A DNA stretch of 37,741 nt from positions 1 through 37,741 of the forward strand of contig QKCE01000252.1 of assembly GCA_003245785.1 (NCBI GenBank). Reading direction: 5' to 3'. A model generated the notes under the pieces. The model did not search any database and was not told the origin of the DNA. It was given only the letters and a program-made list of their open reading frames with translations. How positions within the stretch are numbered: the stretch's first letter is position 1; each line of letters starts with the position of its first letter. This stretch comes from Spirochaetales bacterium. Lineage in GTDB: Bacteria; Spirochaetota; Spirochaetia; Treponematales; Treponemataceae. The translations under genes and the position numbers were made by a program. Of the stretch, positions 19,406-24,659 are shown piece by piece.

Positions 19406-20059
19406 CTACGTGGCCATGCGGACAGCGAGGGGAGGCATCCGTATGATTCGGTCCGCCAGGACCTCCGCCTCGGTCGGATCGTGGGTCACGTAAATCGCCG
19501 AATACCCGAGTTCCCGTTGGCGGGAGCGCAATTCGTCCCGGAGCCTTCCGCGAAGCTCGACGTCGAGGGCCGAGAGGGGCTCGTCGAATAGCACGAGGTC
19601 GGGATTCACCGCGAGGGTCCGCGCGAGGGCGACCCGCTGTTTTTCCCCGCCGGAAAGGCCCTCGATTCGCCTTTTGGCGAACCCCGAGAGCGAGAAGCGC
19701 TCGAGCCATTCCCCCGCGGCCATGCGGCTCTCCCGCGTGCCCATCCCGGCGGCCTTGAGTCCGTAGCCGATATTGTCCTCCACCGAAAGGTGGGGGAAGA
19801 GCGCGTGATCCTGGAACACCATGCCTATCCTCCGCTTCGCCGGGGGGAGCCGGGTCAGGTCGCGGCCCGCGAGAACGACGCTTCCCGCGTCCGGGGTTTC
19901 GAGCCCGGCGATCATGCGGAGCGTCGTGGACTTTCCGCATCCCGAGGGACCGAGCAGGGCCAGGGCCTCGCCGCGGGCGAGGTCGAAGGAAATCGCGACC
20001 GCCGCCGTCGCCCATCTTTTTTCGAGATCCCGGACCTCGAGCCACGCATTACCGTTCAT
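19406..20059 (-). CDS. thiQ: ABC transporter ATP-binding protein, thiamine(-phosphate) uptake
   Basis: [52 protein letters not shown]; operon with riboswitch-controlled thiB and thiP. Confidence 0.85.
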
Positions 20060-21704
20060 TGGTACCGCCGTCTTGCAAGAAAAACGCGATTCCCGCGACG
20101 CAGGAAAGGGTCACCGCGCAGGCGCAGGCCTCGGAAAACCGGTAGGAGCCCGCCAGGCGGAAAAGGAGAAGCGCGAGGTTTTCGTAACCCGGCACCGAAA
20201 GGACCAAGGGAAGGGTCGCGTCGCCCGCGCTGATGGCGAAGACGAGGGCGGCCCCCGAAAGGGCCCCGCGGGCCGAAAGGGGCAAGAGGACCCGGTAAAA
20301 CCGGTCGATGGGACCCGAGGAAAGGAGCAGTGAGGCCTCGTGGATCCCCGCGGGCACCCGCTCGAGGGCGCTTTGTATTTGAGCCCAGGCGAAGGGCCAG
20401 GCGAGGGAAGCTTGGGCGACGACGAGGGCAACCCACCGCCCCCTGGGGGAGAGGAGTGTCCACCCGAAACCGAGCATCACGGGGGAAACCGCGAGGGGAA
20501 GGAGAGGGGCGAAGCGGGACGCCGCGCCACGGAGTCCCCGGGGAGACGCGCCCCCGCCGTAGGCCGCGAAGGTAAAAGCAAGGGATGCCGCCGTCGCCAG
20601 GGCCGCGGCGGCGAGCCCGGTGGATACCGTGGCGCCCAGGGCCGGGAAGAAATTCCGCCTGCCCAGAAAAGACCGCCACGTCCCGAGGCCCGCCGCGAGG
20701 GACGCGCCGTATTGGGCCCCCGAGGCGCTCACCGCGAGGGACCGGGCCGGTATCGACAGGAGCGGGCCGATGAAGAATACGAAAATGCCCCCGAGGAGCG
20801 CCGCGGCGAATGCCGTCTCGCCCGCGCCCCGAATGCGCCTCCTGGGCCTCGGGACGTCGCGGGAGGAGGTTCCCCCGCCGAGTTTCCCCTGGAGCCGCGC
20901 GTACAGCGCGATGATCGCGACCGCGGCGATCGTCTCGATCGCCGCTATCAGGGACGCAGTGCGGAAATCGAGAAGGTTTCTCGCCGACTGGTAAAGTTCC
21001 ACCTCCAGGGTGGTTCCCCCCACCCCGCCGAAAAGCAGCACGATCATGAAGCTGAAAAAGCAGTACAGGAACACGAGGGTCGCACCGGAGAGCGCGGGCC
21101 TGGCGAGCCGGGGAAGGGTAACGGTGAGGAACGCCCGGACGGGCCCGGCGCCGAGGAGCGCGGCGGCCTCTTCCTGGTCCGCGGGAAGGCGCTCCCATAC
21201 CCGGGAGACCGTCCGCATCACCACCGGGAAGTTATACAGGCCGTGGGCGAAGACCACGCCGGTCATGGAATAGAGGAAGGTTACGGGAGGCTCGTTGAGT
21301 CCGAAAGCCTTCGTCAGGAACAGGTTGAGCCAGCCCTGCCGGCCGTAATACAGCACGAAGGCGAGGGCGATTATCATGGGCGGCACGCTCAAGGGCACCG
21401 CGGAGAGGGCTAAAAGGAATTTGCGGCCGGGGAAATCGCGACGCGCGACGAAAAAGGCGGCGGGAACGCCCACCGCGAGGGCGCACAGGGTCGAAAGGGA
21501 GGCTTCCGCCAGGGTAAACCGGAGCGCGGACAGCAGCCTCGCCGTCCGGAGCGCCGGGTCGCCCTCACCCGCCGAGGTAACCCCGAAGAGGGCGACCAGC
21601 GCGGGCACGAGGAACCCCGCGGCGACCGCGAGCAGGGACGCGAGGCCGATCACTGCCCCCGCGTATCCCTTGCCCGATGCAAGCCGGCCGCGGATGCTTG
21701 TCAT
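20049..21704 (-). CDS. thiP: ABC transporter permease (two fused permease modules), thiamine uptake
   Basis: 551 aa with two binding-protein-dependent permease modules (e.g. AAALLGAGPVRAFLTVTLPRLARPALSGATLVF; EASLLLSSGPIDRFYRVLLPLSARGALSGAALVFAIS). ATGA overlap with thiB. Confidence 0.85.
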   Translation of the reverse strand: MTSIRGRLASGKGYAGAVIGLASLLAVAAGFLVPALVALFGVTSAGEGDPALRTARLLSALRFTLAEASLSTLCALAVGVPAAFFVARRDFPGRKFLLALSAVPLSVPPMIIALAFVLYYGRQGWLNLFLTKAFGLNEPPVTFLYSMTGVVFAHGLYNFPVVMRTVSRVWERLPADQEEAAALLGAGPVRAFLTVTLPRLARPALSGATLVFLYCFFSFMIVLLFGGVGGTTLEVELYQSARNLLDFRTASLIAAIETIAAVAIIALYARLQGKLGGGTSSRDVPRPRRRIRGAGETAFAAALLGGIFVFFIGPLLSIPARSLAVSASGAQYGASLAAGLGTWRSFLGRRNFFPALGATVSTGLAAAALATAASLAFTFAAYGGGASPRGLRGAASRFAPLLPLAVSPVMLGFGWTLLSPRGRWVALVVAQASLAWPFAWAQIQSALERVPAGIHEASLLLSSGPIDRFYRVLLPLSARGALSGAALVFAISAGDATLPLVLSVPGYENLALLLFRLAGSYRFSEACACAVTLSCVAGIAFFLQDGGTNER

Positions 21705-22723
21705 TTTGAGAGGATGGTAACCGCTTTATCGATTGCCGCGGTTACGTCGGCGGATGCGACCGTCAGGGTCTTGGGCGCCATGGGGGCCGCCTTGAAGCTC
21801 GCGGGCAGGGTCACCGAAGGCGACACCGGGTACATGAACTGGGTCAGGGGCAGGACTTCCTGCGCCCCGTCGGTGAGCATGAAATCGATGAACGCCTTGG
21901 CCCCTTCGGGATTCTTCGCCCCCTTCGCGAGGCCGAGCCCCTCGATCTGCGCGACGTGGCCCTCGGGGAAGATCAGCGCCTCGTAACGCTCGGTATTCTC
22001 GAATTCCACGTGGTACGCGGGGCTCGTCGTGTAGCTGATGACCAGCGGAGCCTCGCCGGAGGTGAACAGCGAGTATCCCGCGTCCCAGCCGGGCGCCACG
22101 GTCAGCACGTTGCCCTTGAGCCGCGTCCAGAAATCGGGCCAGTCCTTGCCGAAGGCCGCCATCGCCCAGGCGAGAAAGCCCGTGCCCGGGGTACTCGTGC
22201 GCGGGTCCATCAGGATGATCTTTCCGGCGAAACGGGGAGACGCGAGGTCCGCGAGGCTCGAGGGGGGCTCGATCCCCGAAGCGGTATCGAAAATCATCGC
22301 GAATTGACCCCAGTCATAGGGGGTCAGGAGCCAGTCGTCGGCGAGGCGCAGGCCCGCGGGGACGACGTCCGCACCGGCGGGCTTATAGGAGGCGAGCACG
22401 CCGGCCTTCCGGGCCGCGTCGATCAGGTTGTTGTCGAGGCCCACGAGCACGTCAGCCCGAACGTCCTTCTTCTCGAGTACCGCCCGGGAAAGGACCTGTC
22501 CCGCGTCGCCGCAGGAAACGAGGTTCACGGCGATCCCGGTTTTCCCGGTAAAGCGCTTGGCGAGTTCCGGACCGGGACCCCATTCGGCCGTGAAGGAATC
22601 GTAGGCATAGACGGTAATTTCGTTCGAAGCGGTCGCCGCCTCGGAAGAACCTTTCGCGGCGAGCTGTCCCGCCGCGACCATCAGGGAAGAAAGTAAAAAG
22701 AAGGTGAAAATTCTGGTTTTCAT
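21701..22723 (-). CDS. thiB: Thiamine ABC transporter substrate-binding protein
   Basis: MKTRIFTFFLLSSLMVAAGQLAAKGSSEAATASNEITVYAYDSFTAEWGPGPELAKRFTGKTGIAVNLVSCGDAGQVLSRAVLEK: ThiB-type; directly preceded by a TPP riboswitch. Start corrected to 22723. Confidence 0.9.
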   Translation of the reverse strand: MKTRIFTFFLLSSLMVAAGQLAAKGSSEAATASNEITVYAYDSFTAEWGPGPELAKRFTGKTGIAVNLVSCGDAGQVLSRAVLEKKDVRADVLVGLDNNLIDAARKAGVLASYKPAGADVVPAGLRLADDWLLTPYDWGQFAMIFDTASGIEPPSSLADLASPRFAGKIILMDPRTSTPGTGFLAWAMAAFGKDWPDFWTRLKGNVLTVAPGWDAGYSLFTSGEAPLVISYTTSPAYHVEFENTERYEALIFPEGHVAQIEGLGLAKGAKNPEGAKAFIDFMLTDGAQEVLPLTQFMYPVSPSVTLPASFKAAPMAPKTLTVASADVTAAIDKAVTILSK

Positions 22724-22726
22724 CGC

Positions 22727-22845
22727 TCCCTCCGCCGGTATTACCCGGATACAGGTTGGCCGGCCCCAGGGGCCGACGCGTAAGGGTATGATCTCAGCCT
22801 TAAGTCGAAGGGGCGGAACGCCGATTCGACCAGGCACCCCTGGCA
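22727..22845 (-). ncRNA. TPP riboswitch (THI element)
   Basis: Minus-strand: AGGGGTGCC...AAGGCTGAGATCATACCC...CAACCTGTATCCGGGTAATACCGGCGGAGGGA, matching the conserved GGGGUGC / CUGAGA / ACCC / ACCUG / GGNUAAUNCC / AGGGA blocks; immediately upstream of thiB. Confidence 0.95.
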
Positions 22846-22851
22846 AGGGCC

Positions 22852-22880
22852 ATAGTATCGAAGGCCGGGAAAAATTGCAA
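22852..22880 (-). promoter_or_regulatory. Sigma-70-like promoter for the TPP-riboswitch/thiBPQ transcript
   Basis: Minus strand TTGCAA (22880-22875)-N17-TACTAT (22857-22852); predicted start about 22845, the first base of the aptamer. Confidence 0.55.
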
Positions 22881-22897
22881 GTTAACCCGTTCGCTGT

Positions 22898-22903
22898 TAT
22901 ACT
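22898..22903 (+). promoter_or_regulatory. Sigma-70-like -10 (TATACT) for the PfkB gene; -35 TTGCAA at 22875-22880, 17-bp spacer
   Basis: TTGCAA-N17-TATACT, followed by 6 nt and ATG at 22910. Confidence 0.6.
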
Positions 22904-22909
22904 CGGCCC

Positions 22910-23866
22910 ATGGGCACCAATACCGCCAAAAAAACCGTCCGCCGCGTGCTTTGCGTGGGTTCAGCGTCGGTCGACATAAAGGCATTCAGTTTTCAGGAAG
23001 ACGTGCAAAACGCGTACCGCGAGGGCACGATCGACCTCGTGGCCGGGGGAGTGGCCCGGGGCATGGCGCGAAACCTCCGCCAGCTCGGCTTCGAGGTCTC
23101 CATCGCCTCGGTGATCGGCCAGGACATCTTCGGCGAATTCCTGCGAAAGGACCTCTCTACCGCGGGTGTGAATACCGGGCTTTTGCGGGTAAGCAAAACC
23201 TCGTCGACCGCCCTCTTCTCGGTCATGGCCGCGAAGGGCGGCGGCTCGTCCTGCGTGTACGCCAACGGCGTCCTTCAGGAGATAACCGTGGACCGGGAGT
23301 TCACGGACTTCATGGACCGGGAAAAAATCGATACCCTGGTCATCGACTCGAACGTGTCCCACGCGGTGCTCGAGCGCCTCTATTCCCTGAAGGCCGCCGA
23401 AGGCCCCAGGCCGCTATTCGTGTTCCAGAACGCCACCTCGCCGGATATCGCGAAGAAATCCCTCGCTTGGGCGCCCCTGGTCGATCTTTTCGCGGCGAAC
23501 GAATTCGAGGCGGCGGCGATAATCGGCGAGACCGCCACGCCCGACGAGGCCTTCGCCGACCGGTTCCGGGCCCTGGGCTACAAAAACTTCATCATTACCT
23601 TCGGGGAACGGGGCGTCCTCGTCGCCCTCGGGCCAAAAACCTGGATAGAGCCGGCCTACAAGCCCTCGGTCGTGGTCGACACGATCGGCGCCGGCGACGC
23701 CTTCGCCGCCGGCTTTCTCTATGGGTACCTCGGCGAGCAGAACGAGAAAACCTGCATCCGGTTCGGCCTCGCCTCCGCCCGCGAGACCATCGCCACCCGC
23801 GATACGGTATGCAGTTTCCTCACGGCGGAATACCTCGATGGCTTTCACCTCAACGACCAGGCATAG
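22910..23866 (+). CDS. PfkB-family carbohydrate/nucleoside kinase
   Basis: RVLCVGSASVDIKAFSF...VAGGVARGMARNLRQLGFEVSIASVIGQDIFGEFL...VVVDTIGAGDAFAAGFLYGYL: both PfkB signatures. Confidence 0.92.
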   Translation: MGTNTAKKTVRRVLCVGSASVDIKAFSFQEDVQNAYREGTIDLVAGGVARGMARNLRQLGFEVSIASVIGQDIFGEFLRKDLSTAGVNTGLLRVSKTSSTALFSVMAAKGGGSSCVYANGVLQEITVDREFTDFMDREKIDTLVIDSNVSHAVLERLYSLKAAEGPRPLFVFQNATSPDIAKKSLAWAPLVDLFAANEFEAAAIIGETATPDEAFADRFRALGYKNFIITFGERGVLVALGPKTWIEPAYKPSVVVDTIGAGDAFAAGFLYGYLGEQNEKTCIRFGLASARETIATRDTVCSFLTAEYLDGFHLNDQA

Positions 23867-23900
23867 GGAGGCGGATATGCCCGCAAAAGGAGGAATCTTC

Positions 23901-24659
23901 ATGGCTGGATTGCTTTCATGGGCCGCGGTAGCCCTCGCGGCAGCCCAAACGGCGCCCGGTACGCCGGCCGGAACGCCCCCCGACGGGGAACGTCTCCGCC
24001 GTGCGGAAGGCTTCGCGGAATCCCTCGAATGGACCGGCCAAGATTCCCTGCGCTTCGCCTTCGGCGGGGTAACGGTCGTTGTCGATCCCCTCGTCGGGCC
24101 CTCGGGAAGCGACCGGGCGGACTTCATCCTCATCACCCACCCGCATCAGGACCACCTTTCGCCGGCTTCAGTGGAAGCCTGGTCCGGAGCAGAAACGGCC
24201 GTTATCGCGCCGGTCTCGGTAGTTCCCGAGATCCGTAAATTCCATGAGGGACCGATCGAGGGGCTCAAGCCGGGGGATACCTTCAAGCTCGGCGACGCGA
24301 CGCTGGAGGCGGTCCCGGCCTACAACGCGAAGAAACAGAACTTCCACCCCAAGGCGAACGGCTGGCTGGGTTACGTGCTGGACGACGGGAAGCTTCGGGT
24401 CTATATCGCCGGCGATACGGAACGCATCCCGGAAATGAGGGAAATCCGGGCCGACTCGATTCTCCTGCCCCTCGGCCAGGTATATACGATGAACGACGTC
24501 GCCGAGGCCGTCGCCTGCGTCGCGGACGTCCACGCCGTACTCGCGATCCCGGTGCATTGGGGCCAGTACGAGGGCTCCGCGGAGGACGTCAGGCGGTTCG
24601 GCGAACTTCTCGGGAGCAAGGCGCGACTTTTCGTACCGAACAGAAAGAAAACCTTTTAG
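23901..24659 (+). CDS. Secreted MBL-fold metallo-hydrolase (UlaG-like)
   Basis: MAGLLSWAAVALAAAQTAPG signal-peptide-like N-terminus; ADFILITHPHQDHLSPASVE; start chosen at 23901 because of the strong SD AAGGAGGAA (MPAKGG at 23877 is the alternative). Confidence 0.85.
   Translation: MAGLLSWAAVALAAAQTAPGTPAGTPPDGERLRRAEGFAESLEWTGQDSLRFAFGGVTVVVDPLVGPSGSDRADFILITHPHQDHLSPASVEAWSGAETAVIAPVSVVPEIRKFHEGPIEGLKPGDTFKLGDATLEAVPAYNAKKQNFHPKANGWLGYVLDDGKLRVYIAGDTERIPEMREIRADSILLPLGQVYTMNDVAEAVACVADVHAVLAIPVHWGQYEGSAEDVRRFGELLGSKARLFVPNRKKTF

Follow-up and report, generated by a model that had tools for sequence, protein, structure and literature searches.

Within the window (the whole stretch of DNA that was analysed, 37,741 nucleotides in length, from a Treponema-like spirochaete MAG), we consider it somewhat probable that two back-to-back promoters of the sigma-70 type, one for thiBPQ on the minus strand and one for a PfkB-family gene on the plus strand, use a single -35 hexamer, TTGCAA. 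The hexamers, their spacers and the conservation pattern could be read in the sequences themselves. The arrangement appears closer to a neat form of the usual overlapping promoters than to an established switch.

Putative promoter elements between thiB and the PfkB-family gene

The self-complementary hexamer TTGCAA was read directly at 22875-22880, in a stretch (22852-22903) composed of ATAGTA-TCGAAGGCCGGGAAAAA-TTGCAA-GTTAACCCGTTCGCTGT-TATACT. On the plus strand, it is followed by 17 bp, TATACT (22898-22903), CGGCCC and then the ATG of the PfkB-family gene at 22910; on the minus strand, it is followed by 17 bp, TACTAT (22857-22852), and then the TPP riboswitch and thiBPQ. The initial annotation had described these elements, and its sequence claim was right to the base. 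The features considered were as follows.

19406-20059, minus strand: thiQ, ATPase (ABC_tran; named thiQ from the operon position)
20049-21704, minus strand: thiP, permease (BPD_transp_1; the top NCBIfam match was ThiP, under cut-off)
21701-22723, minus strand: thiB, thiamine ABC transporter substrate-binding protein (TIGR01254, 282 bits; TIGR01276, 236 bits, under its cut-off)
22710-22852, minus strand: TPP riboswitch (THI element) ahead of thiB (RF00059, 32.2 bits, E 1.2e-4 on 401 bases)
22852-22857, minus strand: putative -10 TACTAT of the thiB promoter (spacer 17; TAnnnT at spacer 17-18 in 11 same-genus riboswitch genomes)
22875-22880, no strand assigned: self-complementary TTGCAA, the putative shared -35 (read directly; invariant in G000, the genome of the window, and in G002, G004 and G009)
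22898-22903, plus strand: putative -10 TATACT of the pfkB promoter (spacer 17; extended -10 TG in the G000 species only; TATACT or TATAAT at spacer 17-18 in G002, G004 and G009)
22910-23866, plus strand: pfkB-family kinase gene (PF00294, 157.5 bits; ATG at the predicted start site)

When a substrate-specific identity for the PfkB kinase was sought in NCBIfam, no equivalog was found at its cut-off. A metallo-beta-lactamase-fold gene (23900-24659, plus strand) lies between pfkB and a DUF2400 gene, and is missing there in G002 and G004.

The plus promoter (TTGCAA-17-TATACT) scored 9/12, carries the extended -10 TG, and was the sole site obtained from a consensus scan of 22000-24000; the minus promoter (TTGCAA-17-TACTAT) scored 8/12, just under the cut-off of the scan, which missed it for this reason. 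As a -35 element, TTGCAA matched in only 4/6 positions on either strand. TTG is the best-conserved part of the -35 element; the consensus, TTGACA, is non-palindromic and cannot give TTG both ways. TTGCAA would offer TTG on both strands. Each strand has a -35 and a -10 separated by 16-18 bp, as in overlapping back-to-back sigma-70 promoters (17/17 in G000; 17 or 18 in G002, G004 and G009), and the core elements overlap in the same hexamer.

The shared layout is real, and a chance arrangement at 22852-22903 is not likely. When 85 bp around the locus were dinucleotide-shuffled 20,000 times, a plus promoter was obtained in 9% of the shuffles, a minus promoter in 12% and both in 1.4%; the two -35s were within 1 bp of each other in 0.04%, and exactly the same -35 was used in 0.005% (about 5 per 100,000; 5e-5). 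The fixed arrangement, TTGCAA with TAnnnT at 17 bp on either side, was found twice in the entire G000 genome and at most once in each other same-genus genome.

TTGCA also resembles the -12 motif of sigma-54 promoters, and it was considered as such an element. That reading requires GG ten bases upstream of GC; the plus strand has CC there (22865-22866), and the minus strand has AC where its GG would be. With no GG at -24, the sigma-54 reading was dropped and deserves hardly any credence.

Sharing and non-sharing species

Homologues of thiB were searched in 61 genomes and were widespread. In all of the same-genus genomes carrying the riboswitch (11 of 12), TTGNNN-17/18-TAnnnT precedes the riboswitch core by 9-13 nt, with or without pfkB, and several other family members have it in a comparable position; a predicted thiB promoter independent of pfkB is well supported. 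In G003, TTGCAA is present at thiB and no pfkB was found; the hexamer therefore does not require a second user. Note that the G003 site reads TTGCAA-17-TACCAT and that the leader there is very short and devoid of the CTGAGA core, an apparent loss of the riboswitch.

The genes thiB and pfkB were divergent neighbours in six species, all of one genus, and none of the pfkB relatives outside the genus was beside thiB. Four of the six (G000, G002, G004 and G009) have TTGCAA with both spacers of 17 or 18 bp. In G008, the thiB -35 is TTGCCT, and pfkB, the -10 of which is farther from the thiB -35 than in the sharers, separately has ATGACA-17-TATACT; in G006, the thiB -35 is TTGCCA, and the pfkB TATAAT is about 45 bp from that hexamer. 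Since G006 and G008 keep the divergent pair without the symmetry, the shared layout is lineage-specific. The initial annotation had proposed one -35 serving both directions and an alignment across relatives as its check. Two divergent promoters of the sigma-70 type with the palindromic -35 and spacers of 17 or 18 bp were indeed kept in four species despite strong divergence. General conservation of the symmetry did not hold: the outcome named beforehand as speaking against the proposal, the gene pair kept without TTGCAA, was found in 2 of the 6 species.

The four species that form the conservation set for sharing include three close ones, G000, G002 and G004. The four-fold silent-site identity of pfkB was only 43-49% among these three and 37-40% against G009. 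Even so, in the three, AAAATTGCAAGTT was identical at 13/13 positions, and the remaining plus spacer had diverged. The phylogenetic tree of PfkB was compatible with the shared form having arisen once, although the support (73/82) is not firm.

A simpler explanation is that only the thiB promoter needs TTGCAA, which would be one of the permitted TTGNNN hexamers, the pfkB promoter being of the extended -10 type or weak and its -35 position coinciding by chance. The thiB -35 is TTGNNN throughout the genus, G003 carries TTGCAA without pfkB, and TGTTATACT is an extended -10 in G000, so that the plus promoter may need its -35 little. However, the extended -10 is missing from G002, G004 and G009, all of which retain TTGCAA at 17-18 bp. 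The thiB -35 ends in CAA in 4/4 sharers versus 1/16 non-sharers (Fisher p = 0.001; 0.02 with the three close species counted once), but as TTGCAA was what identified the sharers, this comparison is in part circular. Moreover, G008, with its pfkB -10 further off, combines the separate -35 ATGACA with a non-palindromic thiB -35. We regard the coincidence as unlikely, albeit the most serious of the alternatives. The pattern in the four sharers matches the expectation for a shared -35 under selection.

TTGCAA might also be the centre of an operator, AAnTTGCAAnTT, bound by a dimeric regulator acting on both genes. This extended match is identical in G000, G002 and G004, but its 12-mer, AAATTGCAAGTT, occurs once per genome in these three closest genomes, at the thiB-pfkB locus only, and no regulon was seen; in G009, the symmetry is limited to ATTGCAAT, and the rest of the conservation tracks the promoter elements. 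The operator and regulon reading was dropped as quite improbable.

The thiB leader and likely consequences of a putative shared -35

The riboswitch score of 32.2 bits is below the Rfam gathering score for RF00059 (54.3 bits). The model was aligned in full length (1-105) to the thiB leader, the aptamer core (CUGAGA, ACCUG and UAAU.CCGGCGGAGGGA) is present ahead of the thiamine genes, and CTGAGA was seen in 11/12 same-genus leaders. The TPP riboswitch itself is real despite the sub-threshold score. Relatives in the genus and family scored 34.9-45.1 bits, likewise below 54.3; therefore, the riboswitches of this clade are not absent but missed by the cut-off. Annotation at 54.3 bits will overlook the TPP riboswitches of this spirochaete family.

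The Shine-Dalgarno sequence of thiB (GGAGGG, 22728-22733) is inside the last (3') strand of the aptamer, and no terminator-like sites were found within 22000-24000. Because of these two points, riboswitch control of thiB is likely to be translational. Control by thiamine would then come later than initiation, at translation, through the riboswitch over the Shine-Dalgarno sequence, and TPP should not switch pfkB because it would act after initiation. A coupling of thiamine uptake to the kinase through regulation, as had been suggested from the shared hexamer, is not supported: the riboswitch is inside the thiB leader, no terminator was found, and the adjacency of thiB and pfkB is confined to six species of one genus. 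A direct link was dropped, as pfkB relatives beyond the genus are not beside thiB.

The pfkB mRNA of the window would be leaderless because its ATG is at the predicted start site (22910). The gene seems leaderless in G000, G002, G004 and G006 (ATG 6-7 nt past the -10); in G008 and G009, it is preceded by a short leader that may contain a Shine-Dalgarno sequence.

The start sites are predicted near 22844 (minus strand) and 22910 (plus strand), with about 66 bp between them. The hexamer needed by one polymerase would be covered by sigma region 4 of the other; from this geometry we infer that binding would be exclusive, with a single polymerase bound at any time. The effect of this exclusion would depend on promoter strength. 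If both promoters are weak, both genes would still be expressed with little interference; weak interference is what we expect, since the putative promoters scored 8-9/12. Firing of the two genes in alternation as a regulatory device, as had been imagined, is not supported; at E. coli promoters with a shared -10, competition between polymerases was negligible at basal activity (PMC12825309). That the full-length palindromic -35 has been selected as a mutual-exclusion device, each initiation at thiBPQ blocking one at pfkB, seems rather improbable. If true, it would be a -35-centred counterpart to the known -10-centred bidirectional promoters. If active, the locus would be a compact natural test of two polymerases competing for one -35, as against the well-studied shared -10, and its relatives would provide a ready comparison of shared (G000, G002, G004 and G009) and separate (G006 and G008) forms.

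Known systems and other divergent regions

Our literature search for a shared -35, in which older precedents may be missed, returned nothing closer than the Acinetobacter ddrR-umuDAb region, which is the nearest precedent found. The mapped -35s of these two divergent genes are both on one inverted repeat, and mutations of the repeat were offered as the reason that both genes lost expression (PMC7273328). The mapped -35s there, like the putative ones here, fall on a single symmetric sequence between divergent genes; there, however, the repeat is the site of the UmuDAb repressor and the -35s differ (TTGACG and TTGAAT), whereas here one hexamer would be both.

Two other systems are analogous but differently built. 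In bidirectional promoters (Warman et al. 2021, cited in PMC10268837; PMC12825309), a pseudo-symmetric -10 is shared, polymerase binds one way at a time, and 7-25 bp, often 18, separate the start sites; PMC12825309 leaves separate divergent promoters out of its class. At such E. coli promoters, basal activity is too low for competition, which was seen only once one direction was raised (PMC12825309). One symmetric core element is read both ways there as it would be here, but here it is the -35, and the predicted starts are about 66 bp apart rather than 7-25 bp; the two -10s are distinct, with 40 bp between them, and the locus lacks the shared symmetric -10 of Warman et al. In pLS20, the divergent promoters Pc and Pr likewise occupy the same DNA, and each is proposed to have its -10 where the other has its -35, under the control of a regulator and DNA looping (PMC4207663). 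The elements would be swapped between the two promoters there, instead of one -35 being common to both.

A census was performed with 195 divergent regions from G008, G014, G004 and the window, obtained with a simple gene caller. Overlap of the -35s at offset -1 (TTGNCAA) was found in 11 regions versus 1.5 in shuffles (5 versus 0.28 at higher stringency), and 3 of the 11 also overlapped at offset 0 (0.6 in shuffles). Offset -1 exceeds single neighbouring offsets, yet relative to shuffles it is not clearly more enriched than other back-to-back offsets. In a symmetry-independent test, opposite -10s numbered 4.75 per position at the sharing distance versus 3.54 elsewhere, a weak excess only. A genome-wide class of shared -35 promoters was dropped on these grounds, and the absence of a clear excess of such pairs in the census also favours the coincidental origin considered above. 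Sharing seems to arise now and then as a by-product of a quasi-symmetric -35, with no evident design rule. With such a -35 (TTGNCAA or TTGCAA), a divergent promoter can arise through one new -10. Two more divergent pairs, with near-consensus promoters overlapping at TTGACAA (TTGACA / TTGTCA), were observed on contig C1 of G008, near 404170 and 891750.
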